Assembly: GCA_002238765.1 (NCBI GenBank)
Contig: MPMZ01000029.1
Span: 1 to 35,193, forward strand
Direction of reading: 5' to 3'
Source: Nitrospira sp. bin75
GTDB taxonomy: Bacteria; Nitrospirota; Nitrospiria; Nitrospirales; UBA8639
DNA length: 35,193 nt
Part shown: positions 6,903-28,579 of the stretch, piece by piece
Layout: every line of letters begins with the position of its first letter
Position numbering within the stretch: position 1 is the stretch's first letter
The notes under the pieces: generated by a model
What the model was told of the DNA's origin: nothing
Databases searched by the model: none
What the model saw: the letters and a program-made list of their open reading frames with translations, nothing else
Position numbers and translations under genes: made by a program

Positions 6903-7451
6903 ATGTCTGCATCTCACACCCCTCACGTGCATGAACCAGGGCATCAGTCCCCTCCTGCCGAACACAAGGCCCGCGGGCCCATTTCCATTGAGTGCGGCAT
7001 TATCACGTGCAGTGATACGCGGACCCCGGAAACCGATAAAAGCGGGCAACTCATTCGAGAGTTACTCACGCAAGAAGGCCATCGCATCGGCGCCTATCAC
7101 GTGGTGAAGGACGAGCCGGTCGAAGTTCGGAAACTCGTTCAACAATGGGGAGCACAGCCGGGACTCGAAGCCTTGATCATCAATGGCGGCACCGGCATTT
7201 CCCGTCGCGACTCCACGTTTGAAGCCGTTGACGGCCTCCTGGAAAAACGATTGACGGGGTTTGGCGAACTCTTTCGTTACCTGTCCTACAAGGATATCGG
7301 CTCGTCCGCGATGCTGAGCCGTGCCACGGCCGGCCTGTATCAGGGGATCGTGCTGTTCTCGATTCCCGGTTCGAGCGGAGCGGTGCGCCTGGCCATGGAG
7401 GCCCTGATCCTTCCTGAACTTCCGCACATTGTCGGGGAAATGCGGAAATAA
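6903..7451 (+). CDS. moaB: molybdenum cofactor biosynthesis protein MoaB/MogA family
   Basis: A 182-residue MoaB/MogA-type protein that adenylylates molybdopterin in molybdenum cofactor synthesis. Residues about 27-182 form the MoCF-binding fold. Motifs are 'GIITCSDTR', 'LIINGGTGISRRDSTFEAV' (GGTG loop at about 95-98) and 'FSIPGSSGAVRLAMEALILPELPHI'. The 'FRYLSYKDIGSSAMLSRATAG' segment is standard for the family. A His/Pro-rich N-terminal tail of about 25 residues is unusual. The ribosome site is weak. The closeness to MoaB rather than MogA is judged from motif style, so the symbol is likely but not certain. Confidence 0.88.
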   Translation: MSASHTPHVHEPGHQSPPAEHKARGPISIECGIITCSDTRTPETDKSGQLIRELLTQEGHRIGAYHVVKDEPVEVRKLVQQWGAQPGLEALIINGGTGISRRDSTFEAVDGLLEKRLTGFGELFRYLSYKDIGSSAMLSRATAGLYQGIVLFSIPGSSGAVRLAMEALILPELPHIVGEMRK

Positions 7452-7554
7452 CGTTTCCTCCACCTCTGTGTTCCTCACAGGCACTTGTCTCACTTGTCTA
7501 TTTACACTTTTGTATCTTTTGGGATACCATTAGGTAATGCTTGAGTGTTTGTAG

Positions 7555-7637
7555 GTCAGGTTAGCGAAGCGTAACCTGACAGCCTCGTGGTACGACAAAG
7601 CCAGCCCGTGTCGGATTACGCACCGCCAATCCGACCT
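7555..7637. repeat. two adjacent palindromic repeats
   Basis: GTCAGGTTA-(8)-TAACCTGAC at 7555-7580, and GTCGGATT-(10)-AATCCGAC at about 7610-7635. These are copies of the 'gtaggtcggatta' palindrome found at several other sites in the window. They fill the gap between moaB and the nuclease-like gene. Confidence 0.75.
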
Positions 7638-7662
7638 ACTCACTACTAACACGAAGGCATAC

Positions 7663-8490
7663 ATGAGATACAAGAAAATCGAATGTCTTATCAAGACTAG
7701 ACGCAGCTTAATCGGTTGCACTGATGCAAATCTGGAAAAATTGAAAAAAGGAATAGATAAGTGTGAGACGAAACTGAACGATGAGACTGTTTGGACATTT
7801 TTGGCTGTCTTGCCTTATCTGAGCGTGACCGATGGATTGAACAACCTGTTCAAGGTATTAACCGGTAGCGGAGCATCGACGACGATAGAGAAACTCTGGT
7901 TGGAGGCATTGCCTTACCCTCCCAGGGAAAGCGAGAGCAATACACACCTCGACCTTGCTCTTGGGGGAATAACGGACAGGAACGGCACGAAGAATGGTAT
8001 AAAGTATTGTCCCAATTTCGGGAAGCAGGTGTGTTTCTGCGAGATGAAATGGGAATCTGACATTAGCACGAGTGTGGCCAACAATTTGCACCGCAACCAG
8101 ATCGCCCGTGTCATCGACAACCTGATCAGTTTCCAGGATGATGGTCAAAACAGACCAGAAAAATTCTATTTCACCCTCGTCACTCCAAGCGTATTTGTAC
8201 AGGGAAAAGGTCCATACTCCCGCTTGTATGGTTATAAGATTAAAGAGTACTCGAATCAGAATACCGGGCTCCAGTCTTTGCAAAGCGATCTCAGTAGCAA
8301 TCTGAAAGTTAGAGGGACGGCTGACTGGAAATACCCTGACCAATATACGAGAAATGCCATATTGAAGAAACTGGTGGTAAAGCATGTGAGTTACGAAGCA
8401 ATCATTAATAATGCACCGGACAGCGATGCAAAGCAGGAGGCATATGGTCTGCTAAATAGGGGGTTTCAAGAGATAAAAAGGAAATCGTAA
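7663..8490 (+). CDS. PD-(D/E)XK nuclease-like protein, unnamed family
   Basis: I do not recognise a named family. The 275-residue protein has a helical N-terminus (1-80). A stretch with the spacing of a PD-(D/E)XK core follows: Asp97 in 'THLDLALGG' and Glu127-x-Lys129 in 'CFCEMKW', followed by 'NNLHRNQIARVIDNL'. Cys116, 124 and 126 lie close to the active-site strand. The later 'KFYFTLVTPSVF' suits another core strand. Its base composition is more AT-rich than its neighbours, suggesting transfer. It is 20 bases upstream of a HigA-type antitoxin gene and probably co-transcribed with it. A stand-alone defence nuclease or toxin is the likely role, by inference. Confidence 0.55.
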   Translation: MRYKKIECLIKTRRSLIGCTDANLEKLKKGIDKCETKLNDETVWTFLAVLPYLSVTDGLNNLFKVLTGSGASTTIEKLWLEALPYPPRESESNTHLDLALGGITDRNGTKNGIKYCPNFGKQVCFCEMKWESDISTSVANNLHRNQIARVIDNLISFQDDGQNRPEKFYFTLVTPSVFVQGKGPYSRLYGYKIKEYSNQNTGLQSLQSDLSSNLKVRGTADWKYPDQYTRNAILKKLVVKHVSYEAIINNAPDSDAKQEAYGLLNRGFQEIKRKS

Positions 8491-8510
8491 AAATTCTCTA
8501 GGAGGCAGCA

Positions 8511-8804
8511 ATGGCAAAGATACAGACCCGGCCGTGGGACGCGGCGGATGACCTGGAGACTGAGGAGGACATCGTTCTCTACCTTGAAGCGGCTTTTGAA
8601 GACGGCGATCCTGGACTGATAGCGGCTGCGTTGGGCGACGTTGCAAGAGCCAAGGGGATGACGACGGTCGCTGCCGAAGCCGGTTTGGGTAGGGAGAGCC
8701 TGTACAAGGCACTGTCACCAGACGGCAACCCGGAGTTCGCCACCGTGCTCAAGGTTCTGCGTGCCCTGGGCCTCAGGCTTCATGCGTCCGCTTCGAGTGC
8801 CTGA
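8511..8804 (+). CDS. HigA-type addiction-module antidote protein
   Basis: A 97-residue protein of the putative addiction-module antidote family (HigA-like, TIGR02684 type). 'LYLEAAFEDGDPGLIAAALGDVARAKG' at about 25-50 is followed by an HTH, 'TTVAAEAGLGRESLYKALS', and then 'GNPEFATVLKVLRALGLRL'. It normally represses its own operon and neutralises a RelE/HigB-like toxin encoded just upstream. Here no such toxin is present; the upstream partner is the PD-(D/E)XK-like gene. A good AGGAGG site is present about 7 bases before the ATG. The toxin may have been lost, or the nuclease-like protein may be the partner. Confidence 0.85.
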   Translation: MAKIQTRPWDAADDLETEEDIVLYLEAAFEDGDPGLIAAALGDVARAKGMTTVAAEAGLGRESLYKALSPDGNPEFATVLKVLRALGLRLHASASSA

Positions 8805-8913: not shown

Positions 8914-9945
8914 TTAAGGAACGAGGATGATTTTTCCGAACATCTTGCGGGCGAGCATTCGTTCCTGTGCCTGGCGGGCTTCGGATAACGGGAAGACCGA
9001 ATCCACGACCGGCTTGACGGTCCCGGCCTCGATGAACCGGCCGGCTTCCAGGAGTTCGGCGCGAGTGCCCATGTAGGATCCCCTGATCGTCAATTGCCGG
9101 GAATAGACGTATCGCGCATCCAGGAGATTCTCAGGTCCGGACGTTGCGCCGCAGGTGACCAAGCGTCCCCCGCGCGTCAACGATCGCAAACACTGGTCCC
9201 AGACCACCTGACCGATATGCTCGATGACCACGTCCACGCCGCGGCCGTCGGTGAACGCGTGGACGCGTTGGGTCACGTCCTCCCTGGCATGATTGATCAC
9301 CAGTGCCGCACCGATGGCTTGGGCTTTTTCGATTTTGTCGTCAGTGCCGACCGTACTGATCACCCGTGCCTCAAGCCGGCGGGCGAGTTGGATCGCCATG
9401 CTGCCAACGCCGCTCCCGGCGCCCATCACCAGCACGGTTTCCCCGGGTTGAACGTCCGCCAGGGTTTTCACCATGTGCCAGGCCGTGACCGACACCAGGG
9501 GGTAGGCTGCGGCTTGTTCAAAGGTCAAGCCGGGAGGCATCGGCAGGAGGTTTCTTGCCGGGACCTTGACGTATTCCGCATAGCCCCCGTGAACCCCGGC
9601 ACCCAGTAAATGGTACGTCGGGCAGAAATTATCCTTCCCGGCCAGGCAGGACTCGCACTGCCAACAACTGATGCCCGGGGAAACGACAACGGGTTGTCCA
9701 ACCGGATAAGGCGCGTCTGTGCCATCCCCGATCCGTTCCACCACGCCACTCACGTCGCAGCCGGAAATATGCGGAAGCGGGATCGGGTAATTGGGTATCC
9801 CCTGGCGGATCCAAATGTCCAAATGATTGAGCGCACAGGCTTTGACCCGGACCAGAGCTTCCCCGGCCTCGGGAGCAGGGAGCGGAACGTCCTCAAGCGT
9901 GAGCTGTTCCGGACCGCCGTGTTGATGAAAGGTAACGGCTTTCAT
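8914..9945 (-). CDS. zinc-dependent alcohol dehydrogenase-family oxidoreductase
   Basis: A 343-residue medium-chain dehydrogenase/reductase. The GroES-like domain (about 1-150) carries Cys37, 'GCDVSGVVE' at 62-70, and the four structural-zinc cysteines 94, 97, 100 and 108 ('CWQCESC...FC'). The NAD(P)-binding Rossmann fold follows with 'VMGAGSGVGSMAIQLARRL'. The catalytic-site His-Glu seen in classical ADHs is Cys-Asp here. The C-terminus 'RMLARKMFGKIILVP' is that of quinone reductase-like members. It probably acts on an alcohol, aldehyde or enone with NAD(P)H; the substrate is unknown. It appears monocistronic. Confidence 0.88.
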   Translation of the reverse strand: MKAVTFHQHGGPEQLTLEDVPLPAPEAGEALVRVKACALNHLDIWIRQGIPNYPIPLPHISGCDVSGVVERIGDGTDAPYPVGQPVVVSPGISCWQCESCLAGKDNFCPTYHLLGAGVHGGYAEYVKVPARNLLPMPPGLTFEQAAAYPLVSVTAWHMVKTLADVQPGETVLVMGAGSGVGSMAIQLARRLEARVISTVGTDDKIEKAQAIGAALVINHAREDVTQRVHAFTDGRGVDVVIEHIGQVVWDQCLRSLTRGGRLVTCGATSGPENLLDARYVYSRQLTIRGSYMGTRAELLEAGRFIEAGTVKPVVDSVFPLSEARQAQERMLARKMFGKIILVP

Positions 9946-17945: not shown

Positions 17946-17975
17946 TTGATATGCATCAGTAATATCAACTATTAT
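17946..17975 (+). promoter_or_regulatory. promoter with overlapping operator-like palindrome for the DUF262 operon
   Basis: TTGATA (17946-17951) and TATTAT (17970-17975) are spaced by 18 bases. TTGATAT at 17946-17952 and ATATCAA at 17962-17968 form a perfect inverted repeat with a 9-base spacer covering the -35 and the spacer. A GGAG-rich ribosome site and the ATG at 18009 follow. A regulator binding here would block the polymerase. Confidence 0.55.
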
Positions 17976-18008
17976 AGGGGCACTCTAAAAGGAGAGGGGG
18001 GAATCGAA

Positions 18009-19232
18009 ATGGACCTGGATTCTGACGTTGTTGAAATGACGGAACTTACCAAAGAACCCTTGGAAGATATTGAGCAAGGAGGCGTTGAGCAGGAGAACGT
18101 TGAAGGACCAGATCCTCCAGGCTCTTCTCTTCCAATCAAAGAGCCATTCGATCCCACGAACATCAACATCGTCACTAAAAATCCCGTCGTTGATCTGATA
18201 ATAAAAAGAATCGTCCGTCATGAAATAGACCTGAATCCCGACTTTCAACGTCACCCAGACGTCTGGGACAGAAAAAGAAAAAGCAGGCTCATCGAGTCAC
18301 TCCTGTTGTGCATTCCCATACCGGTGTTCTACATGGCGGCGGACGAAGAAGACACATGGCAGGTCGTCGATGGCCTGCAACGGCTGGACACCTTAAAACT
18401 TTTCATTCTCGACAAGAAACTTCGTTTGCGCGGGCTGGAATACCTGAATCAATTTGAAAACCATTCTTATGACGATCTCCCTCGTCCCATGCAGAGACGC
18501 CTCAACGAGACAGAGCTTTTCTGTCACGTCATTCAGCCTGGCACACCCCGAGAAGTCATGTTCAACGTTTTCAAACGCATCAATACCGGCGGCAAACCTC
18601 TGTCGCTACAGGAAATTCGACATGCCTTAAACCCCGGAAGAGCAAGGGACCGCATCAACGAATTAGCAACGGACCAAACGTTTTTGGAGGCAACCACCAA
18701 TAGCGTGAGTACGAAACGCATGGCTGACCGTGAATGCGTACTGCGATTCATCGCATTTCACTTACAGCCATTAAATGCTTACAAGGGTGATCTGGACGCC
18801 TTTCTCGTAAAGGCTATGGAATCCTTGAATAAAGACGTGAGCGAAGAACAATGGGCTTTACTGAGCGCTGATTTCCGTCGTGCGATGAGATTGGCCACTG
18901 CTCTGTTTGGTACCGAGGCCTTCCGCAAGCCACCCAAGAAACGCAGGAGTAGGCATAGGGATGCGTTGGCCGACGAACTGAGCCTCGTCGACGAACGCAG
19001 AAGTCCCATCAACAAGCCCCTGTTTGAAAGCTGGTCTGTCAATTTGGCGCGCTTGGACGAATCTCAAGGTCAACGCCTCATAAAGCAACGAGAAACCGTT
19101 CAAAACCGTTTCCTCTCTCTGATAAGACAAGATAAATTCGTGGAAAGTATAAGCATAGGGACTCAATGGGATGAGCAAGTCCGTACTCGCTTTGAAGAGA
19201 TCGAAACACTCCTCCGGGAGGTGTTGGAATGA
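18009..19232 (+). CDS. DUF262 (GmrS-like, ParB-related) protein
   Basis: About 407 residues from the ATG at 18009; a TTG frame start at 17946 lies inside the predicted -35 and is rejected. An acidic N-terminal stretch leads to the DUF262 domain, with 'IDLNPDFQRHPDVWDRKRKSRLIESLL', 'WQVVDGLQRLDTL' (DGLQR at about 121-125 where family members usually have DGQQR) and 'FKRINTGGKPLSLQEIRHAL' (about 186-205). DUF262 proteins, such as the GmrS half of type IV GmrSD, are ParB-like NTPases in phage defence. There is no DUF1524 HNH nuclease here. It overlaps the AAA gene by 4 bases (ATGA), so it is the first gene of a coupled operon. Confidence 0.88.
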   Translation: MDLDSDVVEMTELTKEPLEDIEQGGVEQENVEGPDPPGSSLPIKEPFDPTNINIVTKNPVVDLIIKRIVRHEIDLNPDFQRHPDVWDRKRKSRLIESLLLCIPIPVFYMAADEEDTWQVVDGLQRLDTLKLFILDKKLRLRGLEYLNQFENHSYDDLPRPMQRRLNETELFCHVIQPGTPREVMFNVFKRINTGGKPLSLQEIRHALNPGRARDRINELATDQTFLEATTNSVSTKRMADRECVLRFIAFHLQPLNAYKGDLDAFLVKAMESLNKDVSEEQWALLSADFRRAMRLATALFGTEAFRKPPKKRRSRHRDALADELSLVDERRSPINKPLFESWSVNLARLDESQGQRLIKQRETVQNRFLSLIRQDKFVESISIGTQWDEQVRTRFEEIETLLREVLE

Positions 19233-20341
19233 TTACTCGAATACGAATGAGAAATTTTAAATGTTTCAAGGAGTCAGAGTTGCCACTCGATGGGCTGACG
19301 GTTCTGGCCGGCTTGAACGGCACAGGGAAAAGCAGCGTCATACAGGCACTCTTGCTGCTCCGTCAATCTGGTCTTGACGAAAAAGGTTTCCCTGGAGTTT
19401 TACGCTGGCAAGGCAAGCTGGTCGACACAGGCTCGTTTAGCGACGTCCTCTACGAAGGTGCCGAGCAAGACGTCATTGAACTGGAGGCCGAATTCGACAA
19501 GATTAAACGCATCAAGATAAGTGTGACGATAGACGATTTTCAAACGCCTTCTGCGAGGATCACGAATTCCGAAAGCGTTGAAGACACCTCACTGTATAGA
19601 CGATCCATGTACTATCTGAGTGCCGATCGTTTGGGGCCACAAAAGACACTGCCATTTTTTGAGCAAGGGCATGAATCAAATACGCCCTTGGGCAAGAATG
19701 GAGAACATGTGCTCTGGTTTTTGGAAAAATACGACGGAAAGATAATCCCGGAGAATCTTAGACATGCAGACGCAGATCAAACAACTCTGCTTTCACAGAC
19801 CAATGCGTGGCTCAAGGTCATCAGTCCGGGGGCCAAACTCAATATCACTACCATGCCGAAAGCGGATGTCGCCTTGGCAGGTTTTGCCTTCTCCAGACAG
19901 CGGGACGTTATGACAAAACCCTTTCGGGCAACTAACGTCGGATTCGGATTGAGTTATGCTCTGCCTCTGATTGTCGCGTTGCTGGCTGCTCAGAATGACG
20001 ACTTGGTGATCATCGAGAATCCTGAAGCCCATCTTCATCCTGGCGGACAGACTCGATTGGCGGAACTCGCGGCAAGGGCTACTTCAGCAGGGACGCAAGT
20101 TATCCTGGAAACTCACAGCGACCATATTCTGGACGGGCTGCGTCTGGCAGTTCGTCGTGCCATCATCAGACCGGAAGAGGTTGCTCTGCATTACTTTCAG
20201 CGAAAAGGTTTGGATACCGAAGTCACCACGCCTGTCATAAGGCCGGATGGCCGATTGGACATCTGGCCAGAGGGTTTCTTCGATCAGCACGAGAAGAATC
20301 TGTCATCACTCATAGCACACCAACAGGATACCGGGGGTTGA
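19229..20341 (+). CDS. AAA-family SMC/RecF-like ATPase with DUF3696-type tail
   Basis: A 370-residue ABC/SMC-type ATPase. It opens 'ITRIRMRNFKCFKESELPL' and has Walker A 'GLNGTGKSS' (residues 28-36). The signature-like 'NVGFGLSYALPLI' is near 237, and Walker B 'DLVIIENPEAHLHP' near 259-272 includes the Glu. 'LETHSDHILDGLR' follows. The C-terminus 'PDGRLDIWPEGFFDQHEKNL' is the DUF3696 hallmark. Such ATPases are recurrent in anti-phage systems, usually with an effector encoded beside them. Its ATG overlaps the DUF262 stop, and the next gene starts one base after its own stop. ATP-driven sensing for the partner proteins is inferred. Confidence 0.88.
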   Translation: MITRIRMRNFKCFKESELPLDGLTVLAGLNGTGKSSVIQALLLLRQSGLDEKGFPGVLRWQGKLVDTGSFSDVLYEGAEQDVIELEAEFDKIKRIKISVTIDDFQTPSARITNSESVEDTSLYRRSMYYLSADRLGPQKTLPFFEQGHESNTPLGKNGEHVLWFLEKYDGKIIPENLRHADADQTTLLSQTNAWLKVISPGAKLNITTMPKADVALAGFAFSRQRDVMTKPFRATNVGFGLSYALPLIVALLAAQNDDLVIIENPEAHLHPGGQTRLAELAARATSAGTQVILETHSDHILDGLRLAVRRAIIRPEEVALHYFQRKGLDTEVTTPVIRPDGRLDIWPEGFFDQHEKNLSSLIAHQQDTGG

Positions 20342-20342
20342 A

Positions 20343-21281
20343 GTGATCCTGGTATTCAACGAGCTTTCCGCTCACAATGTCGCACCATCTCGTCATCAAG
20401 CAAGAGAACGAACAACGAATTTGATCCGGGCCGTGGCGGCGTTGGCGAGCGGCCAATCCACGACACTCGTTTCGATTGATGACACGATATACCAGACTCC
20501 ATTAGCGGAGGGTTATACAGTGTCTCAGTGGTCATACGATGAACGAGTCGATCACGATTTGAGAAATTTCTTTTTGAAGATTTCAACAAAGATAAGTTTC
20601 GAGCAGGACGTATCCGAGGCCGTCAAGGAACAGTTCTCCCTTTCGGAATTCCATTTCCAGCAACAAGAAGCAGGCGGCTTGGGGCTTGCATGGCTACTGA
20701 AAACGACTGCTGCAAGTCTACCTTCCGAAGAATACTGGCTGCGAACCCACATCCCAGTACATCGTAAATGGCTTGAGAGCACAGGAACGGAACGGGAAAA
20801 AGATGTAAGGGTGCTCAACCTTTCGGAAATGACTCACGTTCCAGTTGTTTTCGACGAATTGACTGGAAAAGCTCAAGGAGTTCTGAGAGACGAGCCGGTG
20901 AAATTGGCGGAAAGAAAAGCCGATTGTTTTCCACACCTGACGTTCGGACTGGACGTGAATACTCAAATAGCTGCACTTTCTGTTGAAATTTTACGTATGG
21001 CAATAGCCAAGTTGATTGTCCTGGATACAGCGGTACGAAATTGGCGACGTGAAGGGACAGATGAACCGGTATTGCCGAAGGTCAACCCAGAGAGTGAAGC
21101 AACCATGCAGCAATATGGAAGAGAACGGGAATTCCAATGCGCCAGCGGCGAGAAAAAAGTCTTCAATCTGCACGCCATGATTGGCAGCGGACATCGCATC
21201 CATTTACGAATCGACAAACAAATCAAGTCACTGGAGATTGGTTATATTGGGGAACATCTTCCTACGGCAAGATTTCATTAG
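20343..21281 (+). CDS. unrecognised third protein of the DUF262-AAA operon
   Basis: A 312-residue protein from a GTG start one base after the ATPase stop; the purine run 'gggggttgaa' is the only ribosome site. I do not recognise a family. It opens 'ILVFNELSAHNVAPSRHQA', with helical stretches in the middle and no membrane segment. The C-terminal 60 residues ('REREFQCASGEKKVFNLHAM', 'GHRIHLRID', 'EIGYIGEHLPTARF') look beta-rich and basic with several His, as in an effector or nucleic-acid-binding domain. The strict linkage points to it being the effector of the system. That role is inferred from context only. Confidence 0.6.
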   Translation: MILVFNELSAHNVAPSRHQARERTTNLIRAVAALASGQSTTLVSIDDTIYQTPLAEGYTVSQWSYDERVDHDLRNFFLKISTKISFEQDVSEAVKEQFSLSEFHFQQQEAGGLGLAWLLKTTAASLPSEEYWLRTHIPVHRKWLESTGTEREKDVRVLNLSEMTHVPVVFDELTGKAQGVLRDEPVKLAERKADCFPHLTFGLDVNTQIAALSVEILRMAIAKLIVLDTAVRNWRREGTDEPVLPKVNPESEATMQQYGREREFQCASGEKKVFNLHAMIGSGHRIHLRIDKQIKSLEIGYIGEHLPTARFH

Positions 21282-21330
21282 AGCCTCTTTTCATTCACAC
21301 CCGAGGTTGTGTGTAAATTTGTGAATCTGT

Positions 21331-22968
21331 ATGCCGACCCTTGATTTCAAAGGCAAACAACTCGTTTACGCTCACCACCTGACCGTCCCTTCACGGACAC
21401 TTGAGCCGGATGCCCGAAAGTCCCTTCCACTGAAAGGCAGCAAGCCTTCCCTCGACGACAATTTGATCATTCATGGCGACAACCTGCACGCGCTCAAGGC
21501 TCTGATGCCGCGCTATGCCGGACGAGTAAACTGCATCTATATCGACCCACCCTACAACACCGGCAACGAAGGCTGGATCTACAACGACAACGTAAACAGC
21601 CCGATGATGCAGGAGTGGCTGAAAGGCAAAAGCCCGGTGGACGGCGAAGACCTGGAGAGACACGATAAATGGCTCTGCATGATGTGGCCTCGGCTGCACC
21701 TGTTGCGCGAACTGCTGGCCGAAGACGGGGTGCTTTTTATTTCCATCGACGACAATGAACAGCACCGCTTGCGGATGATGATGGATGAGATTTTCAGTGG
21801 AGAGAACTTCGTCGCGACAATCATTTGGGAAAAAGTTTACTCACCGAAGAGCAGTGCGAAGCATTTCTCGGAAAATCATGATTTCATTGTCGCATACGCC
21901 AGAAACAAGGAAGAGTTCAAACTCGGACTGCTCCCACGAACTGAAGAAGCCGACTCGCGCTACGCCAATCCCGACAATGACCCGCGTGGAATGTGGAAAC
22001 CCAGCGATCTTTCAGCGCGCAATCCCTACAGTAAGGGAACATATTCCATAAAATGCCCACGTGGCCGTGTGATAAAGAGTCCTCCACCTGGCAATTTTTG
22101 GCGTTACTCGGAGGAGAAATTTTGGGAATTGGACAGGGACAATCGAATTTGGTGGGGTGAAGACCGGAACCAAGTACCAGCCATCAAACGATTTCTCTCC
22201 GAAGTAAAACAAGGCTTGGTGCCGGAGACAATCTGGACATACAAGGAGGTTGGTCATACCCAAGACGCAAAGAAAACACTCCTTCAGATTTTTCCCAAAG
22301 ACTTTCCAGACTTTACGACAACCAAGCCCGTGGAATTGCTGACCAGGATCATTCGTCTCTCGACAGATAAAGACTCCATCATCCTCGACTCCTTTGCCGG
22401 TTCTGGCACGACCGCCCACGCCGTACTCGCCTTGAACAAGGAAGACGGCGGCAACCGCAAGTTCATCCTGGCGGAATGTGAAGACTATGCCGACACAATC
22501 ACCGCCGAGCGGGTCCGCCGCGTCATCAAAGGCCTACCGAAGGCCAAAGACGAAAACCTGAAAAACGGGTTAGGCGGCAGCTTCACGTATTGCACGCTGG
22601 GTGATGAAATCAGCCCTGAGAAAATGCTCACCGGAGAGAACCTGCCGGACTACGAAACCCTGGCCCGCCACCTCGTGTACACCGCAACCGGCCAGGCACC
22701 GGACAAACTCCGCAAGGATCACGACAAAGACGGTTTCTTCTACGAAACAAGCGACAAACTGTTTTATCTGATATACGAACCAAATCTCGCCTTCCTGCGT
22801 AGCGCCGACTCCGCCTTGAACAGCGACCGCGCCGAACGTATCGCCAAGCAGACCAAGAAAAAGAAGAAAACCACCGTCGTCTTCGCCACCCACAAATTCA
22901 TGGGCCAGAAGGAATTGACCCAGATGAGCATCACGTTCTGCGGATTGCCGTATGGCGTCTCTGTCTAG
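21331..22968 (+). CDS. type III-like adenine-specific DNA methyltransferase (Mod)
   Basis: A 545-residue beta-class N6-adenine (or N4-cytosine) methyltransferase. Motif IV DPPYNTG (about 72-78) precedes motif I FAGSGTTAHAV (about 355-365), the beta-class order. 'LLAEDGVLFISIDDNEQHRLR' and 'DFIVAYARN' are standard Mod segments. About 160-330 would hold the target-recognition part. The tail 'KFMGQKELTQMSITFCGLPYG' recurs in type III Mod proteins. It provides protection and recognition to the Res subunit at 26061, but 3 kb of other genes separates them, which is unusual. There is no clear ribosome site before the ATG, and it starts 49 bases after the DUF262 operon. Confidence 0.9.
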   Translation: MPTLDFKGKQLVYAHHLTVPSRTLEPDARKSLPLKGSKPSLDDNLIIHGDNLHALKALMPRYAGRVNCIYIDPPYNTGNEGWIYNDNVNSPMMQEWLKGKSPVDGEDLERHDKWLCMMWPRLHLLRELLAEDGVLFISIDDNEQHRLRMMMDEIFSGENFVATIIWEKVYSPKSSAKHFSENHDFIVAYARNKEEFKLGLLPRTEEADSRYANPDNDPRGMWKPSDLSARNPYSKGTYSIKCPRGRVIKSPPPGNFWRYSEEKFWELDRDNRIWWGEDRNQVPAIKRFLSEVKQGLVPETIWTYKEVGHTQDAKKTLLQIFPKDFPDFTTTKPVELLTRIIRLSTDKDSIILDSFAGSGTTAHAVLALNKEDGGNRKFILAECEDYADTITAERVRRVIKGLPKAKDENLKNGLGGSFTYCTLGDEISPEKMLTGENLPDYETLARHLVYTATGQAPDKLRKDHDKDGFFYETSDKLFYLIYEPNLAFLRSADSALNSDRAERIAKQTKKKKKTTVVFATHKFMGQKELTQMSITFCGLPYGVSV

Positions 22969-23173
22969 AAATGCGTTAAGATTGGTCGCGTTTTTATCAA
23001 GAATTGTTTCCTCGCCGATGAACAAAGACGGGCTTTGCTTGATGAACCTAAACGGATTGAATGCTCTGCAATGTCCCTCTTGCGGAATATATGAAGCAAG
23101 GATGTCAATGGTCTTGAACTCACGGCACGTTTATGCATAGTCCGATACACTTACTCACAAAGAGAGAACGCAT

Positions 23174-23419
23174 ATGAAATCAATTGACAAAAATATAGTT
23201 ATAGCCTCGGACGGTAAACTCCCGCCGGCCTTCCGCGAGGCATTTGGCCGAAAGGCCCGTGTAATTGTTCATCTGCAAGAAGACGATCACAGGAAAACGC
23301 AGGGCATAAGCCACCCGATGGATCTCGCCGGCAAGATTCAGGCATTCCGAGACGTTGATGACCCCGTCGCCTGGCAACGTGCCCTTCGAGATTCGTGGAA
23401 ACGCGGCTTGGACAAATGA
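23174..23419 (+). CDS. VapB-like antitoxin
   Basis: An 81-residue protein: 'MKSIDKNIVIASDGKLPPAF' and 'REAFGRKARVIVHLQEDD' form an AbrB/MazE-like strand-rich N-terminus, and 'MDLAGKIQAFRDVDDPVAWQ' begins a helical tail that would occupy the toxin. It ends in an ATGA overlap with the PIN-domain gene, the usual antitoxin-toxin coupling. An AGAGAG ribosome site lies upstream. The pair is placed in the 3-kb gap between mod and res, where it may stabilise the island. Confidence 0.8.
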   Translation: MKSIDKNIVIASDGKLPPAFREAFGRKARVIVHLQEDDHRKTQGISHPMDLAGKIQAFRDVDDPVAWQRALRDSWKRGLDK

Positions 23420-23784
23420 ACTCCGAGCGTTTTTTAATCGATACCAACATTTTCATTTTGCTGTTCAACAATCGTCTGACAGATCCCCTCCCCGATGGAA
23501 AAATCGCGTGCTCAGTTATTACTGAAATGGAATTGCTGTCTTCTCCGGCAATGACTTCACCGGAAGAAGTGTTGATTCGTGAGATGCTTGCCGACATTAC
23601 TATCTATAGCATCGATCAGGATGTGAAAGAAAAAGCTATTCGTGTGCGACGAAAATCAAGGCTCAAGCTGCCGGACGCAATTATTGCCGCTACTGCTATA
23701 TGTCACCATGCCGTTCTGGTGACAAACGACAATGCGTTGCAAAACGTGCCGGATCTGAAAAGCCGGCGGTTAGCGGTCAGATAA
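23416..23784 (+). CDS. VapC-like PIN-domain toxin
   Basis: A 122-residue PIN-domain ribonuclease from the ATG at 23416, whose ATGA overlaps the antitoxin stop; a longer frame start is unlikely. The acidic residues are in place: Asp9 in 'FLIDTNIFILLF', Glu37 in 'VITEMELL', Asp87 in 'LKLPDAIIAATA' and Asp105 in 'LVTNDNAL'. All four suit Mg-dependent RNA cleavage, so it seems intact. Family members cut tRNA or rRNA; the target here is unknown. Confidence 0.9.
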   Translation: MNSERFLIDTNIFILLFNNRLTDPLPDGKIACSVITEMELLSSPAMTSPEEVLIREMLADITIYSIDQDVKEKAIRVRRKSRLKLPDAIIAATAICHHAVLVTNDNALQNVPDLKSRRLAVR

Positions 23785-23798
23785 TAGCCCTCAAGCCA

Positions 23799-23818
23799 TA
23801 CATCGTAAAGACGATGTA
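23799..23818 (+). terminator. weak hairpin after the PIN-domain gene
   Basis: TACATCGT-aaag-ACGATGTA: perfect 8-bp stem with a 4-base loop, 15 bases after the vapC stop. No T-run follows, so it may be only a weak or factor-assisted terminator. Confidence 0.35.
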
Positions 23819-23888
23819 GACGGTCTTACCATAACGTCCTGTGACATACCCGGAACAGGCCCTACACTGTTTTAATTAATCACGGCTC

Positions 23889-24038
23889 GTGCAACGCAAA
23901 ACCCGCCAACAAGACGCCCCGCTGCTGACCCATGAACAAAGAGTTGAACTCGACCGACGTTTGGATGCATACGAAACAGACAATATTAAAGGCCGTGAAG
24001 TCTCCGACGTGGTGAAGACCTTAAAAAAGCAGTTATGA
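23889..24038 (+). pseudogene. truncated addiction-module protein gene
   Basis: A 49-codon frame from a GTG, too short to be a full gene, reads 'PLLTHEQRVELDRRLDAYE' and 'VSDVVKTLKKQL'. This matches the C-terminal half of the addiction-module (TIGR02574-type) antitoxins, 'pLt..q..ELdrRl..ye.dp...W.evr.rl'. The N-terminal half is missing and no toxin frame follows. A further open stretch after it (to about 24120, 'VYPDWQDSLERLGPWIGAF') is unassigned. Confidence 0.5.
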
Positions 24039-24144
24039 AGTCTATCCCGACTGGCAAGATTCCCTTGAACGGTTAGGCCCTTGGATTGGGGCATTCAGGG
24101 AAGCGCGGCTCAGAATATAAATAGCAACTGGAGATTTCTGGACA

Positions 24145-26058
24145 ATGAGATTTAACGTAACGGTTGATCGAGATGAAGACGGGGTATGGATTGTTGAATG
24201 CCCTGCAATCCCAGGTTGTGTGAGTCAAGGCAAAACAAAGAGTGAGGCTCTCGACAACATCAAGGAAGCTATTGCGCTGTGCCTAGAAGTACGTGCCGAA
24301 AGAGGGATGCCCCTGACCATCGAGACTCTTCAAATAAACGTTGTAGTGGACAAAGATATAGAAAAAGAATACCTGAAACAAAAAGCAGAACAACTTGACA
24401 GCGATGGGAGTTGGGACGAACTGATCCCTTTGTGTACAAAAATAATTGATCTGGAACAAGAACCTCATGAAAAAGCGTCGGCATACTTTAAACGCGGTAT
24501 TGCCTACCGCCACAAAGGCGAACTTGACTTGGCAATAGCGGATTTTACCCAGGCCCTAAGGCTAAACCCAGCTCATGCAAACGCATACATTAGGCGCGGT
24601 ATCGCATACGACAAGAAAGGCGATCATGACCTAACCATAGCAGACTACACCAAGGTCCTAGAGTTAGACCCTGATAATATGTTCGCGTACCACAATCGTG
24701 GCAGGGCATACATCAACAAAAACGACCATGACAAAGCCATAGAGGACTTCAACAAAATACTTGAGCAAGACCCCGCTAATGCGGAGATATATCTCTATCG
24801 CGTTCTCGCATACAGCCTCAAAGGCGATTATGATAAAGCGATAGCAGACTGCACCAAGACCCTAGAGTTCAAACCCAATTATGCAAATGCGCACCTTTGT
24901 CGCGGTTTCGCATATATCGACCAAGGCGACCAAGAAAAATTTCTCGATGCCTTTAAGGATTTTGTGAAGGCTAATGAATACGATCAAGCCCTGAAAACCG
25001 AAGTGCCCGCAATATATGTCGCAGGTCAGATTGCTGACATCTATAAAGACCGTGCCGAAGAAGAGGGAGCCAAAGCCTTTGAACTATATTTCAGGCTATC
25101 AGAGGCAATCTCCAATATACAAAACGAACGGTTCTATAGGCCCGGAAATGGCAAAGAAGTTGCTCATTACACTTCCCTTCATGCACTCAAAACGCTAGCC
25201 ACAAATGAGCATTTCCGGCTTTACAATGCCGATTATATGAACGACCCGGAAGAAGGCCGTGTGTTTTTTGAAATCATGAAAAAATTCGGGATAGAAGACG
25301 CAGAGAAGGTTTTTTACAAAAAGAAAGACAAGTCTTATCCATCCCCAGCCTATATCGGCAGTTTTGTCAAGGTGGATGCAAAAGACCCGAAGCAAAAAGA
25401 CGAACTATTTCTGTGGCGTACTTATGGGAAACACGATGGGCAGGAAGCGGCCGGGGCCTGTCTGATCTTCAAGCACGAATGGACTGTTTTTGGAGAAAAA
25501 TGTAGCGAACAAATAGGAGCCATGCAACAATTACAAGCGAAACTGCCTATGTTAAAAGGCGATCGTAAGAATCCAGGGGAAAGACAACCGCCAAAACCAG
25601 ACCTTTATGAAATCGTTTACAGGGACAAGGAAAGCAATCAAGAACTCTCCGAAGAACTGAATGAACTGGCAGAAGCCCTGAAACAAATCAAAGGGCATAT
25701 AGAAGAAAAAGACGATAACAGCCAAAAGAAACTAAGAGAACTTGTCCGCGATCTGCTTGACGCTATCCGCTTTCTGTTCAAGGCGCGTCACTACCGGGAA
25801 GAAAAAGAGGTTCGCGTAGTCCAAGTCCGTTATTATGACAAGACAAAGACGGCACAAGAGCCAGATGACATCCAGGTTGACACGGAACAAATCCCACCGC
25901 GTTTTTACCTCGAGACGGACGAAAATTTCCACTTCAGCGAGGTCATCCTCGGCCCCCAAGCGCGTGGAGAGGCTGAATGGAAGCGTTGGCTCAAGAAACG
26001 AGACGAAAAACTAATGGTCTATAAATCAGAAATTCCATACGGAAAGCCATACTCTTAA
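24145..26058 (+). CDS. HicB-TPR-DUF2971 fusion protein
   Basis: A 637-residue three-part protein. Residues 1-60 are a HicB-type domain ('MRFNVTVDRDEDGVWIVECP', 'PGCVSQGKTKSEALDNIKEA'). Five TPR repeats follow at about 110-143, 144-177, 178-211, 212-245 and 246-279 (for example 'AYIRRGIAYDKKGDHDL'). Residues about 335-625 match DUF2971: 'VAHYTSLHALKTLA', 'YNADYMNDPEEG', 'AGACLIFKHEW' and the closing 'RHYREEKEVRVVQV'. HicB normally pairs with HicA, but no hicA is adjacent. It ends 2 bases before res and sits between mod and res, so it is probably part of the defence locus. The gene is clearly AT-richer than the left region. DUF2971 activity is unknown. Confidence 0.85.
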   Translation: MRFNVTVDRDEDGVWIVECPAIPGCVSQGKTKSEALDNIKEAIALCLEVRAERGMPLTIETLQINVVVDKDIEKEYLKQKAEQLDSDGSWDELIPLCTKIIDLEQEPHEKASAYFKRGIAYRHKGELDLAIADFTQALRLNPAHANAYIRRGIAYDKKGDHDLTIADYTKVLELDPDNMFAYHNRGRAYINKNDHDKAIEDFNKILEQDPANAEIYLYRVLAYSLKGDYDKAIADCTKTLEFKPNYANAHLCRGFAYIDQGDQEKFLDAFKDFVKANEYDQALKTEVPAIYVAGQIADIYKDRAEEEGAKAFELYFRLSEAISNIQNERFYRPGNGKEVAHYTSLHALKTLATNEHFRLYNADYMNDPEEGRVFFEIMKKFGIEDAEKVFYKKKDKSYPSPAYIGSFVKVDAKDPKQKDELFLWRTYGKHDGQEAAGACLIFKHEWTVFGEKCSEQIGAMQQLQAKLPMLKGDRKNPGERQPPKPDLYEIVYRDKESNQELSEELNELAEALKQIKGHIEEKDDNSQKKLRELVRDLLDAIRFLFKARHYREEKEVRVVQVRYYDKTKTAQEPDDIQVDTEQIPPRFYLETDENFHFSEVILGPQARGEAEWKRWLKKRDEKLMVYKSEIPYGKPYS

Positions 26059-26060
26059 CC

Positions 26061-28579
26061 ATGCAACTCAAAAGCTACCAACAAAACGCCCTTGAGCAGT
26101 TGGATCGTTGGCTTGCGGCGCTCAAAGAGGCTCATAAAGACGCGGCGGACGGTGAAGAGTTTTACGCGAAAAAGAAAAGACCTGTTCCCGATGAATTGAA
26201 AAACTATCCTCGGGCAGCATGGCAGAGCCTTAAGGATACAAACATTCTCCCCGGCATTTCAGACAACGGAACTCTTAACATCCCCGATTACATATCTCGA
26301 ACCGGCACGTCCGGAGAGCCTATTCCGCACGTCTGTCTGAAGGTGCCGACCGGCGGCGGCAAGACTCTTTTGGGGGTTGCCGCGCTTGAGCGTATCAAGC
26401 AGGACACGGGCTTCGTGTTGTGGATCGTACCCACGAGCAGACGCTCAAGGCCTTCAGGACCCGCGAGCATCCGTACAGGCAGATGCTTGAGAGGATTTCC
26501 GGCGGCAAGGTCAAACTGTTGCAGAAAGACAACCGCTTTACCCGGCAGGACGTCGAAAGCCGGCTCTGCATCATGATGCTGATGTTGCCGTCCGCCAACA
26601 GGCAAAAAGGAAAGGATTTTCTCAAGATATTCCGGGACAGCGGTGGGTACACCTCGTTTTTTCCCGAACAGGACGATTCAACCGCCAACCACGCACTTTC
26701 GGAACGACACCCCGACCTGGAAAGAAACAGCACCGCCGATTGGGTGAAGCACAGCCTAATCAACGTGCTGAAATTGATTCGCCCTACCGTGATTCTAGAC
26801 GAAGCGCACAAGGCGTATGGGCCGAATGACATGAACAACCGTGAGTTCGTCAAGTCCGTCAATCAACTCAATCCCCGCTTTGTGCTGGAACTGTCCGCCA
26901 CGCCCAAAATCGGTATCAGCAACATCCTGGTCAACATCTCGGGAACCGAGCTTCAAGCCGAGGAGATGATCAAGCTGCCGATAGAGATTCACAGCTTCGA
27001 CAATTCCGACTGGAAACACACGCTTGCCGAAACACAGAAAAAATTGCAGGAACTGGAAACCGAAGCGCAGAAACTGCAAACACGGGAAAACCGCTATATC
27101 CGTCCCATTGCCCTGGTCAGGGTACAGCGGACGGGCGAAGAACAACGAGGGAAAGGGACCATCCATTCGGAGGACGTGCGGGAGCATCTGGTCCAACATC
27201 TTGCCGTGCCACAAAACCGGATCAGAGTGCAATCGTCGGAACAGAAGGAACTCGCCGACGAAGACTTGCTTAGCGAAACAAGTCCCGTCCGCTGGATCAT
27301 CACTAAGGATGCCCTCAAGGAGGGGTGGGATTGCTCGTTCGCTTACATCCTGGCTCTATTGGATAACACCACGGCGACCACGGCCATGACCCAGATGACC
27401 GGACGTATCATGCGACAGCCGCACGCACGCAGAATTGCGCAAAGCGATGCCCTGAACCGGTGCTATATTTATTGTTACAACACAGACGTGGGAAAGGCCG
27501 TCGACAAGGTTAAGGCCGGGCTGGAAAACGAGGGCCTTACGGGGCTTGGCGATGCCATCAGAGGCGAGGGCGAAGGTGACGCACCACAACCGCAAACCGT
27601 CAAGCGACGCCCAAAGTATAAAAAACATCAGATCTTTCTCCCGCAGGTTCTGCACAAAGACGGTTATAGGTGGCGTCCGATTGATTACGACCGCGACATA
27701 TTGGGCGCGATCGACTGGAGCGGAATCGACGCGGGTGGGGCGGTGAGTCTGGACGACAAGGACACGATTCGGGAGATCATTGCTACAGTTGACGTTCAGG
27801 GTGATAAACGTGTCTTCGATGAGGCTTTTGAAACCGGCGAACGGTTACACCTTGACTATTTCGTCCGTCGCCTGACGGACGTGGTGCCCAACCCGTGGCA
27901 GGCTGCGCGCATGGCAGCGAACTTCTTGCAAAAGCACACGAAATACAACGATTCAGCACTGCTGAACAACCGGATTTACCTCTCAGAGGTTTTGCGTCGG
28001 AATATCAAGAAAAATTTGGACAAGAAAGCCGAGTCGGTTTTCCGCGATAAGATCAAACGTGATGCCATCAGGTTTCACCTCGAAACCGACGAGGGGTTGG
28101 ATTATGAACTGGAGAAATCGCTTGAGGTCTTCGTGTCCAGCAGGGAAAGAGCGCTTCAGGGTGAACACGGCCGGCCGATACAACAGAGTCTTTTTGAGCC
28201 CGTGTATGAAAGCAACTTCAATGTACTCGAAAAAGATTTCGCGCTGTATCTGGACAAAAGCGATTCCATCTCCTGGTGGCACAGGATCGCCGCAAAACAG
28301 CAGTATCACCTTCAGGGGTGGAGACGCCAGAACGTCTATCCCGATTTCGTCGCCTGTCGACAAGATGACGGCACACTTCTGATCCTGGAAACAAAAGGCG
28401 TTCACCTGAAGGGAAACGAGGATACGGGCTACAAGCAGAAACTCCTTGAAACCCTCGAAGCAGCGTACAACAAGGCCATTGACCGAGGCGAAATGCGAGT
28501 CTGCGAGCCTCCTGCTGTTTTCAGGATGATGTTTGAAGATCGATGGAAAGAACAAGTCCGTGAACTTGTTGCGGAATAG
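26061..28579 (+). pseudogene. type III restriction enzyme Res subunit, frameshifted
   Basis: Reads as an SF2 helicase-nuclease of about 839 residues if one frameshift is repaired. Frame 1 (from 26061) has Walker A 'VPTGGGKT' at about 95-102 and ends its meaningful part at 'VLWIVPT'. The next frame continues 'EQTLKAFRTREHPYRQMLE' from about 26436. The DEAH box 'ILDEAHKAYG', motif V 'KDALKEGWDCSFAYI' and motif VI 'QMTGRIMRQ' follow. A C-terminal PD-(D/E)XK nuclease is present: 'YPDFVACRQ' then 'LLILETKG'. The missing base is near 26435. Unless it is a sequencing error, the enzyme is dead. It starts 2 bases after the DUF2971 fusion gene. Confidence 0.85.

Follow-up and report, generated by a model that had tools for sequence, protein, structure and literature searches.

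Why does a gene for a nuclease-like protein stand directly in front of an antitoxin gene, at the place where a toxin gene would be expected? This question is raised by a locus of Nitrospira sp. bin75 in contig MPMZ01000029.1, of which the whole stretch analysed (35,193 nucleotides) is called the window hereafter. An earlier note on this DNA had described an ORF of 275 residues lying 20 bases before a HigA antidote, with Asp97 and Glu127-x-Lys129 in nuclease-like order and a foreign base composition, and had proposed that the two genes form a new toxin-antitoxin or self-limited nuclease pair. The arrangement itself is as described, since both ORFs are open, lie on the + strand and are separated by a spacer of 20 bases:

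7663-8490, + strand: PD-(D/E)XK nuclease-like gene with an ATG start, 275 aa; D97, E127 and K129, with E81 also invariant in alignment A3
8511-8804, + strand: orphan antitoxin of the dnstrm_HI1420 family (TIGR02684, PF21716), 97 aa

The two genes are flanked by one gene at 6903-7451 and, on the opposite strand, another at 8914-9945. From the look of their proteins, we take these to be a moaB-like gene and a zinc-type oxidoreductase gene, respectively.

The antitoxin scores well over the curated cut-offs of both families (126.3 bits for TIGR02684, cut-off 53.7; 105.7 bits for PF21716, cut-off 27). HigA is a fair name in the loose sense of HigA-like, and the family proper is dnstrm_HI1420. Its members normally pair with an HI1419 (RelE/Gp49-like) toxin, and in the window no such toxin directly precedes the antitoxin, three toxin codons being left. 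The window antitoxin is 87-96% identical to those of three congeneric genomes (G005, G010 and G009) that have a full-length HI1419 toxin at the same site. The toxin of G009 scores 26.6 bits on Gp49 (PF05973, cut-off 23.9), which we assume to be a RelE-like family. An HI1419 toxin acting in trans was considered and rejected: the sole match in the genome is 45% identical and precedes an antitoxin of its own. At the same site in G009, the HI1420 antitoxin has a HicB-like antitoxin gene behind it (L003:2051-2482; 27.0 bits, at the cut-off). We take the HI1419/HI1420 module to be probably the COG3657/COG3636 pair of Makarova 2009 (PMC2701414). Solo antitoxins are generally common according to that paper, and the window antitoxin is likewise orphaned; it differs from them in having a foreign nuclease gene before it.

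The history of the site can be read from its relatives. With the moaB-like gene as anchor, 13 other members of the genus were searched downstream of it for the toxin, the nuclease and the antitoxin. G005 and G010 have a full-length HI1419-type toxin followed by the antitoxin, and G001 has the same order with an internal deletion in the toxin. In G009, a full-length toxin is followed by a nuclease remnant and then the antitoxin; the remnant comprises residues 81-127, 91% identical to the window protein, and a C-terminal stub. In the window, the nuclease and the antitoxin are present and the toxin is reduced to three codons, so that the window and G009 have lost complementary parts of the same set of genes. 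Six genomes (G003, G004, G006, G011, G012 and G013) have the moaB-like and oxidoreductase genes in one stretch with toxin, nuclease and antitoxin all absent. None of the three genes was found in the stretch examined in G002, G007 and G008, which does not include the oxidoreductase gene. The earlier note had stated that such an antidote normally follows a RelE/HigB toxin; at this locus the toxin appears to have been deleted, and the deletion explains why no RelE/HigB toxin stands before the antitoxin. The locus resembles the congeneric module in its antitoxin, the ribosome-binding site of that gene, the promoter region and the chromosomal site, and differs in that the toxin gene is deleted and a nuclease gene lies in its place. 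Between the window and G009, the moaB-like gene has a synonymous distance of 1.32, the antitoxin one of 0.20 and the nuclease remnant one of 0.33, the last value being rough because it comes from 47 codons only. These high and low values are most simply read as a move of the block between the two lineages later than their split.

The borders of the nuclease segment can be placed on both sides, and the elements around it are as follows:

7501-7530, + strand: retained promoter region, and putative operator, of the former HI1419/HI1420 module, with promoter-like TTTACA-18-TACCAT
7511-7528, + strand: imperfect palindrome TGTATC-TTTTGG-GATACC, overlapped by the promoter-like site
7537-7545, + strand: remnant of the HI1419 toxin gene, a start codon and two codons, followed by unrelated sequence
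7551-7641, no strand assigned: dispersed palindromic repeat (REP/MITE-like), a double palindrome at the point of the missing toxin
8485-8497, + strand: right edge of the inserted nuclease segment, TCGTAAAAATTCT, common to G009 and with one change in Binatia locus L004
8498-8510, + strand: ribosome-binding region of the antitoxin from the parent module, GGAGGC, also in G010, G005, G001 and G009

On the left side, the window retains TGTATCTTTTGGGATAC, which precedes the toxin start in loci L003, L010 and L017; L009 has one base different. The alignment of the window with G010, G005, G001 and G009 stops at 7545, and no 12-mer of the G010 toxin gene was found in window positions 7400-8560. The repeat that lies at this point has 18 matches in its own genome, itself included, and folds better than 199 of 200 shuffles (z -3.2); a 90% copy of it lies downstream of the antitoxin in G010. 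On the right side, the window, G009 and Binatia L004 share TCGT(A/G)AAAATTCT around or after the end of the nuclease gene, and after this shared edge the antitoxin's own ribosome site resumes in the window and G009. The right-edge sequence is absent from L005, where a deletion lies. DNA similarity between the window and the Binatia copy (80% over 828 columns) extends over the nuclease gene and some 4 bases in front of it, with hardly any flank. From the junctions in the window and G009, the nuclease gene thus entered between the stop codon of the toxin and the ribosome site of the antitoxin.

The nuclease gene stands out from its surroundings. Its G+C content is 44.7%, against 58.6% for the moaB-like gene upstream and 61.9% for the antitoxin, which agrees with the foreign composition claimed before. 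Only 23 of 1375 segments of 825 bases within the window are as low, one overlapping the nuclease gene and 22 lying at 24.3-25.1 kb, so the low value is unusual in the window and not unique. In alignment A3 (nine rows, the window and 8 relatives; alignment A4 has 11 rows), D97, E127 and K129, the latter two forming the motif E127-M-K129, are invariant in 9/9 rows, as are E81, R144, N145 and Q146. The dN/dS of the nuclease is 0.31 between the window and L004, 0.34 between the window and L005, 0.18 between L004 and L005, and 0.11 between L006 and L007, where dS is saturated at 2.45; it is below 1 in all homologue comparisons made.

The protein is predicted to have a PD-(D/E)XK fold. An AlphaFold2 model from 11 sequences is fair (pLDDT 80.2, pTM 0.86), and an earlier one from 5 sequences (pLDDT 46) was left out of the fold searches. 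The predicted order is helix 58-67, strands 78-83, 96-101 and 122-128, helix 142-156 and strand 167-174, which is the alpha-beta-beta-beta-alpha-beta core of the superfamily; residues 133-144, directly after the motif, are poorly modelled. The model places D97 on strand 96-101, E127 on strand 122-128 and K129 just past it, i.e., an acidic residue on core strand 2 and (D/E)xK on the adjacent core strand 3. The structure prediction that the earlier note had suggested as a check thus came out in favor of its PD-(D/E)XK-like label and of the order of residues on which this was based, and conservation in the alignment points the same way. In VIA-align, the 31 best of 50 rows have Z of 4.6-6.6 and, like the 50 as a whole, are mostly what we take to be PD-(D/E)XK nucleases; by the tool's own warning, Z below 8 may reflect no more than a common arrangement. 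Can2, N.BspD6I, the P. abyssi repair endonuclease, LmuA, FokI, EcoT38I and SgrAI are among the matches that we take to be PD-(D/E)XK proteins; chains outside the superfamily, such as an RNA polymerase subunit, are also in the list. Foldseek against the PDB gave no row with E <=0.001 among 393, and against viral models likewise none at this level. The predicted fold is therefore based on topology, on the motif and on the composition of the structural match list, and no structural match to the model is strong enough to name the nearest family.

Sequence libraries do not name the family either. The 275-aa protein has no match in NCBIfam, PADLOC or PDB sequences and no more than weak Pfam rows. 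With the nuclease or its relatives as queries, Pfam, NCBIfam, PHROGs, PADLOC and PDB sequences yielded nothing beyond weak rows. DUF6711, MobC and Allantoicase were rejected as the family of the nuclease and its relatives with scores below cut-offs, and a DUF7662 row appears for two of five members (best E 0.0061). In the plasmid and phage collections, nothing matched apart from one chance-like row (E 0.6). The top four Foldseek rows in the PDB are LmuA of the Lamassu system (PDB 9nxx and 9hr5; E 0.017-0.061; in VIA-align, Z 5.5 and 5.2 over 155 and 153 residues), but identity is 11-14%, these E values are not significant, the window protein has no PADLOC hit, and the direct neighbours of its gene do not read as Lamassu-like, so this likeness is resemblance only. 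Free-standing restriction endonucleases such as FokI, EcoT38I and SgrAI share the motif and the predicted strand order, and one relative, in genome G943, lies behind a DNA methyltransferase gene; the window gene differs in having none directly beside it. Its neighbours are the moaB-like gene, the antitoxin and the oxidoreductase gene, i.e., the adjoining methyltransferase of a Type II restriction-modification system was not found, and the closest DNA methylase seen in the window (21331-22968) lies some 12.8 kb from the nuclease gene. As for REase-ARP (PF22558), the distant relative L036, which came up with the family profile, scores E 4.9e-5 and 23.5 bits, below the cut-off of 27. The nuclease family is joined to that of L036 by hhalign over 81 columns including the motif (E 3.4e-5, probability 72%), and to L049 by profile comparison over 160 columns (probability 63%). 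However, L033, a relative of L036, reaches only E 0.11 on PF22558, and the window protein has no row for it at E up to 1. REase-ARP was not found mentioned in the literature searched.

A separate part of the window, 17946-28579, is likely a defence island. It contains a GmrSD_N protein, an AAA/DUF3696 ATPase, a 312-aa gene with no Pfam row and a DNA methylase (N6_N4_Mtase). A further gene, helicase/restriction-like, lies in the overlapping frames 26061-26576 and 26420-28579 and looks as if it had suffered a frameshift; at E 1e-5, both frames are without a Pfam row. The methylase and this helicase-like gene are presumably Type III Mod and Res. Between them, a 637-aa protein (24145-26058) carries an N-terminal HicB-like antitoxin domain and TPR repeats.

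The relatives of the nuclease were drawn from a genome-contig scan, viral scans and samples from three phyla and two classes, and the family may therefore have more members than are seen here. There are 14 beyond the window, of which L035 and L048 are fragments, the copy in G009 is the remnant described above, and L036, L033/L037 and L049 are distant relatives; for L047, the N-terminus is in doubt. Two relatives are from Binatia (72% identity) and two from Dehalococcoidia (36 and 33%). The class of L006 has two long relatives and a truncated one, and one further relative is a C-terminal fragment at a contig end. In the phylum of the window, a search of 395 genomes found the nuclease in two, that of the window itself and G009. 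L004 and L006 belong to phyla other than that of the window, since the rows listed for their phyla do not overlap with those for the window's phylum. The family is small, sporadic, free-standing and unnamed in the libraries searched, and it spreads horizontally, across phyla.

The surroundings of the relatives are diverse. In G943, the relative starts 512 bases after the DNA methyltransferase gene (PADLOC MTase_II, 2.4e-53), an AAA_23-type ATPase gene lies further upstream of both, and the place looks like a defence island; a short second match lies at the end of the G943 contig. One relative is on a viral contig of IMG/VR, where the genes around it are, in our reading, tail genes. On this contig, at L045:4043-5750, the nuclease homologue lies together with a 267-aa gene that has no Pfam row; both are on the other strand from the tail-type genes around them and resemble a cargo cassette. 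In L046, a 223-aa gene (L046:6883-7554) lies just before the nuclease homologue; its protein has an E-x-K motif of its own (LIEVKYAL), with a weak Pfam row only (DUF5824, E 0.11), and may be a second nuclease-like protein. Read by eye, the copies in L004, L006 and L007 lie between genes of housekeeping type, with no methyltransferase seen among the ORFs beside the nuclease there (ORFs of L005 were not listed). The upstream genes in L034, L045, L046, L047 and L048 also differ by eye, and no constant partner gene was seen beside the relatives.

If the nuclease were a toxin silenced by binding of the HI1420 protein, the pair should recur, as conservation of neighbours across genomes is the mark of a type II toxin-antitoxin system. 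By tblastn with the antitoxin and the toxin, no HI1420 gene was found beside 10 relatives and 3 distant relatives outside the genus, 13 loci of 3.5-10.8 kb in all; the sole match, in L006, is at chance level (E 0.15), and in L047, where the contig ends 448 bases downstream, the absence covers close range only. The nuclease and an HI1420 gene occur together in two genomes of one genus, the window and G009, and one insertion event explains both. So far, then, the nuclease gene is not linked to HigA-like genes elsewhere, which the earlier note itself had regarded as refuting its proposal, and a new toxin-antitoxin or self-limited nuclease pair is not supported. In its favor, the two genes are on the same strand 20 bp apart and both open, and the former toxin is gone from the locus, with its one relative in the genome already provided with an antitoxin. 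Against this stand the 13 loci, the close identity of the antitoxin to those still sharing this site with a full-length HI1419 toxin, and the copies that lie between housekeeping-type genes. We therefore regard such a pair as very unlikely.

The antitoxin could also have kept a use without binding the nuclease. As an HTH protein, it would repress the retained promoter and thus hold the nuclease under its control, with no protein-protein neutralisation needed, in a manner like that of the controller proteins of restriction-modification systems. The palindrome and promoter-like site are kept upstream, both genes follow downstream on the same strand, and the antitoxin has dN/dS of 0.05 against G010 and 0.11 against G001; that its gene stays open after loss of the toxin could indicate some use. 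However, dN/dS is 0.30 against G009, and the low values may stem from other branches. The palindromic repeat lies between the promoter and the nuclease, and the window differs from G010 and G001, with TACCAT for TACAAT and GATACC for GATACA (G009 and G005 also differ there). Moreover, the promoter-like site (a 9/12 match, with three such matches in the region against 1.8 expected) hardly exceeds chance. Capture of this kind appears unlikely, and it is quite unlikely that the nuclease displaced the toxin and took over its autoregulated promoter with the orphan antitoxin as a transcriptional brake. If true, such promoter takeover would be a route from a toxin-antitoxin module to a controlled defence nuclease. 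The nuclease could instead be selfish, a homing-type endonuclease that owes its spread to cleavage of alleles without the insert, e.g., the toxin-antitoxin junction. The point of insertion in two genomes, after the toxin stop and ahead of the antitoxin ribosome site, the sporadic transfer of little beyond the gene and the viral-contig copy among tail-type genes would suit it, but the other copies lie by eye at seemingly unrelated sites with no common target seen, and a single insertion accounts for both genomes. This origin we consider hardly probable at all.

We consider it quite probable that a mobile, free-standing PD-(D/E)XK nuclease gene, probably for defence, was inserted between the toxin and antitoxin genes and that the toxin was deleted later. 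In this history, an ancestral HI1419/HI1420 module would have lain between the moaB-like gene and the zinc-type oxidoreductase gene, and the nuclease gene would have been inserted between its two genes in an ancestor. In the line of G009, the nuclease would then have decayed and the toxin-antitoxin pair stayed; in the line of the window, the toxin would have been deleted at a break where the dispersed repeat now lies, leaving the nuclease and the orphan antitoxin. The antitoxin is then most simply a leftover and probably not the partner of the nuclease. D97 and E127 would hold a metal ion with K129 assisting, and the protein would most likely cut invading DNA. We infer DNA as the substrate and defence as the role, and also that the antitoxin does not bind the nuclease. 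The G943 setting, with its methyltransferase and AAA-type ATPase, and the viral copy fit a nuclease against invading DNA. In contrast, at least three copies (L004, L006 and L007) stand alone by reading, and the lack of an adjoining methyltransferase there counts against a defence nuclease, which would need host DNA to be protected. Dependence on modified DNA is one simple answer to how self-cutting would be avoided.

Taken as a whole, the locus presents an ordinary kind of genome history plus an unnamed nuclease-like family. In the titles and abstract openings among the literature matches listed, such an arrangement of a nuclease and a toxin-antitoxin module is not named, and it may still be in print. 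For the annotation of toxin-antitoxin systems, the case is a caution that adjacency alone is insufficient for calling pairs: one genus preserves the pair, the pair with a nuclease remnant, and the nuclease with an orphan antitoxin, and thereby the origin of a false pair. The PD-(D/E)XK-like family itself, of which a viral contig carries one copy and an apparent defence island another, may be a mobile defence nuclease.
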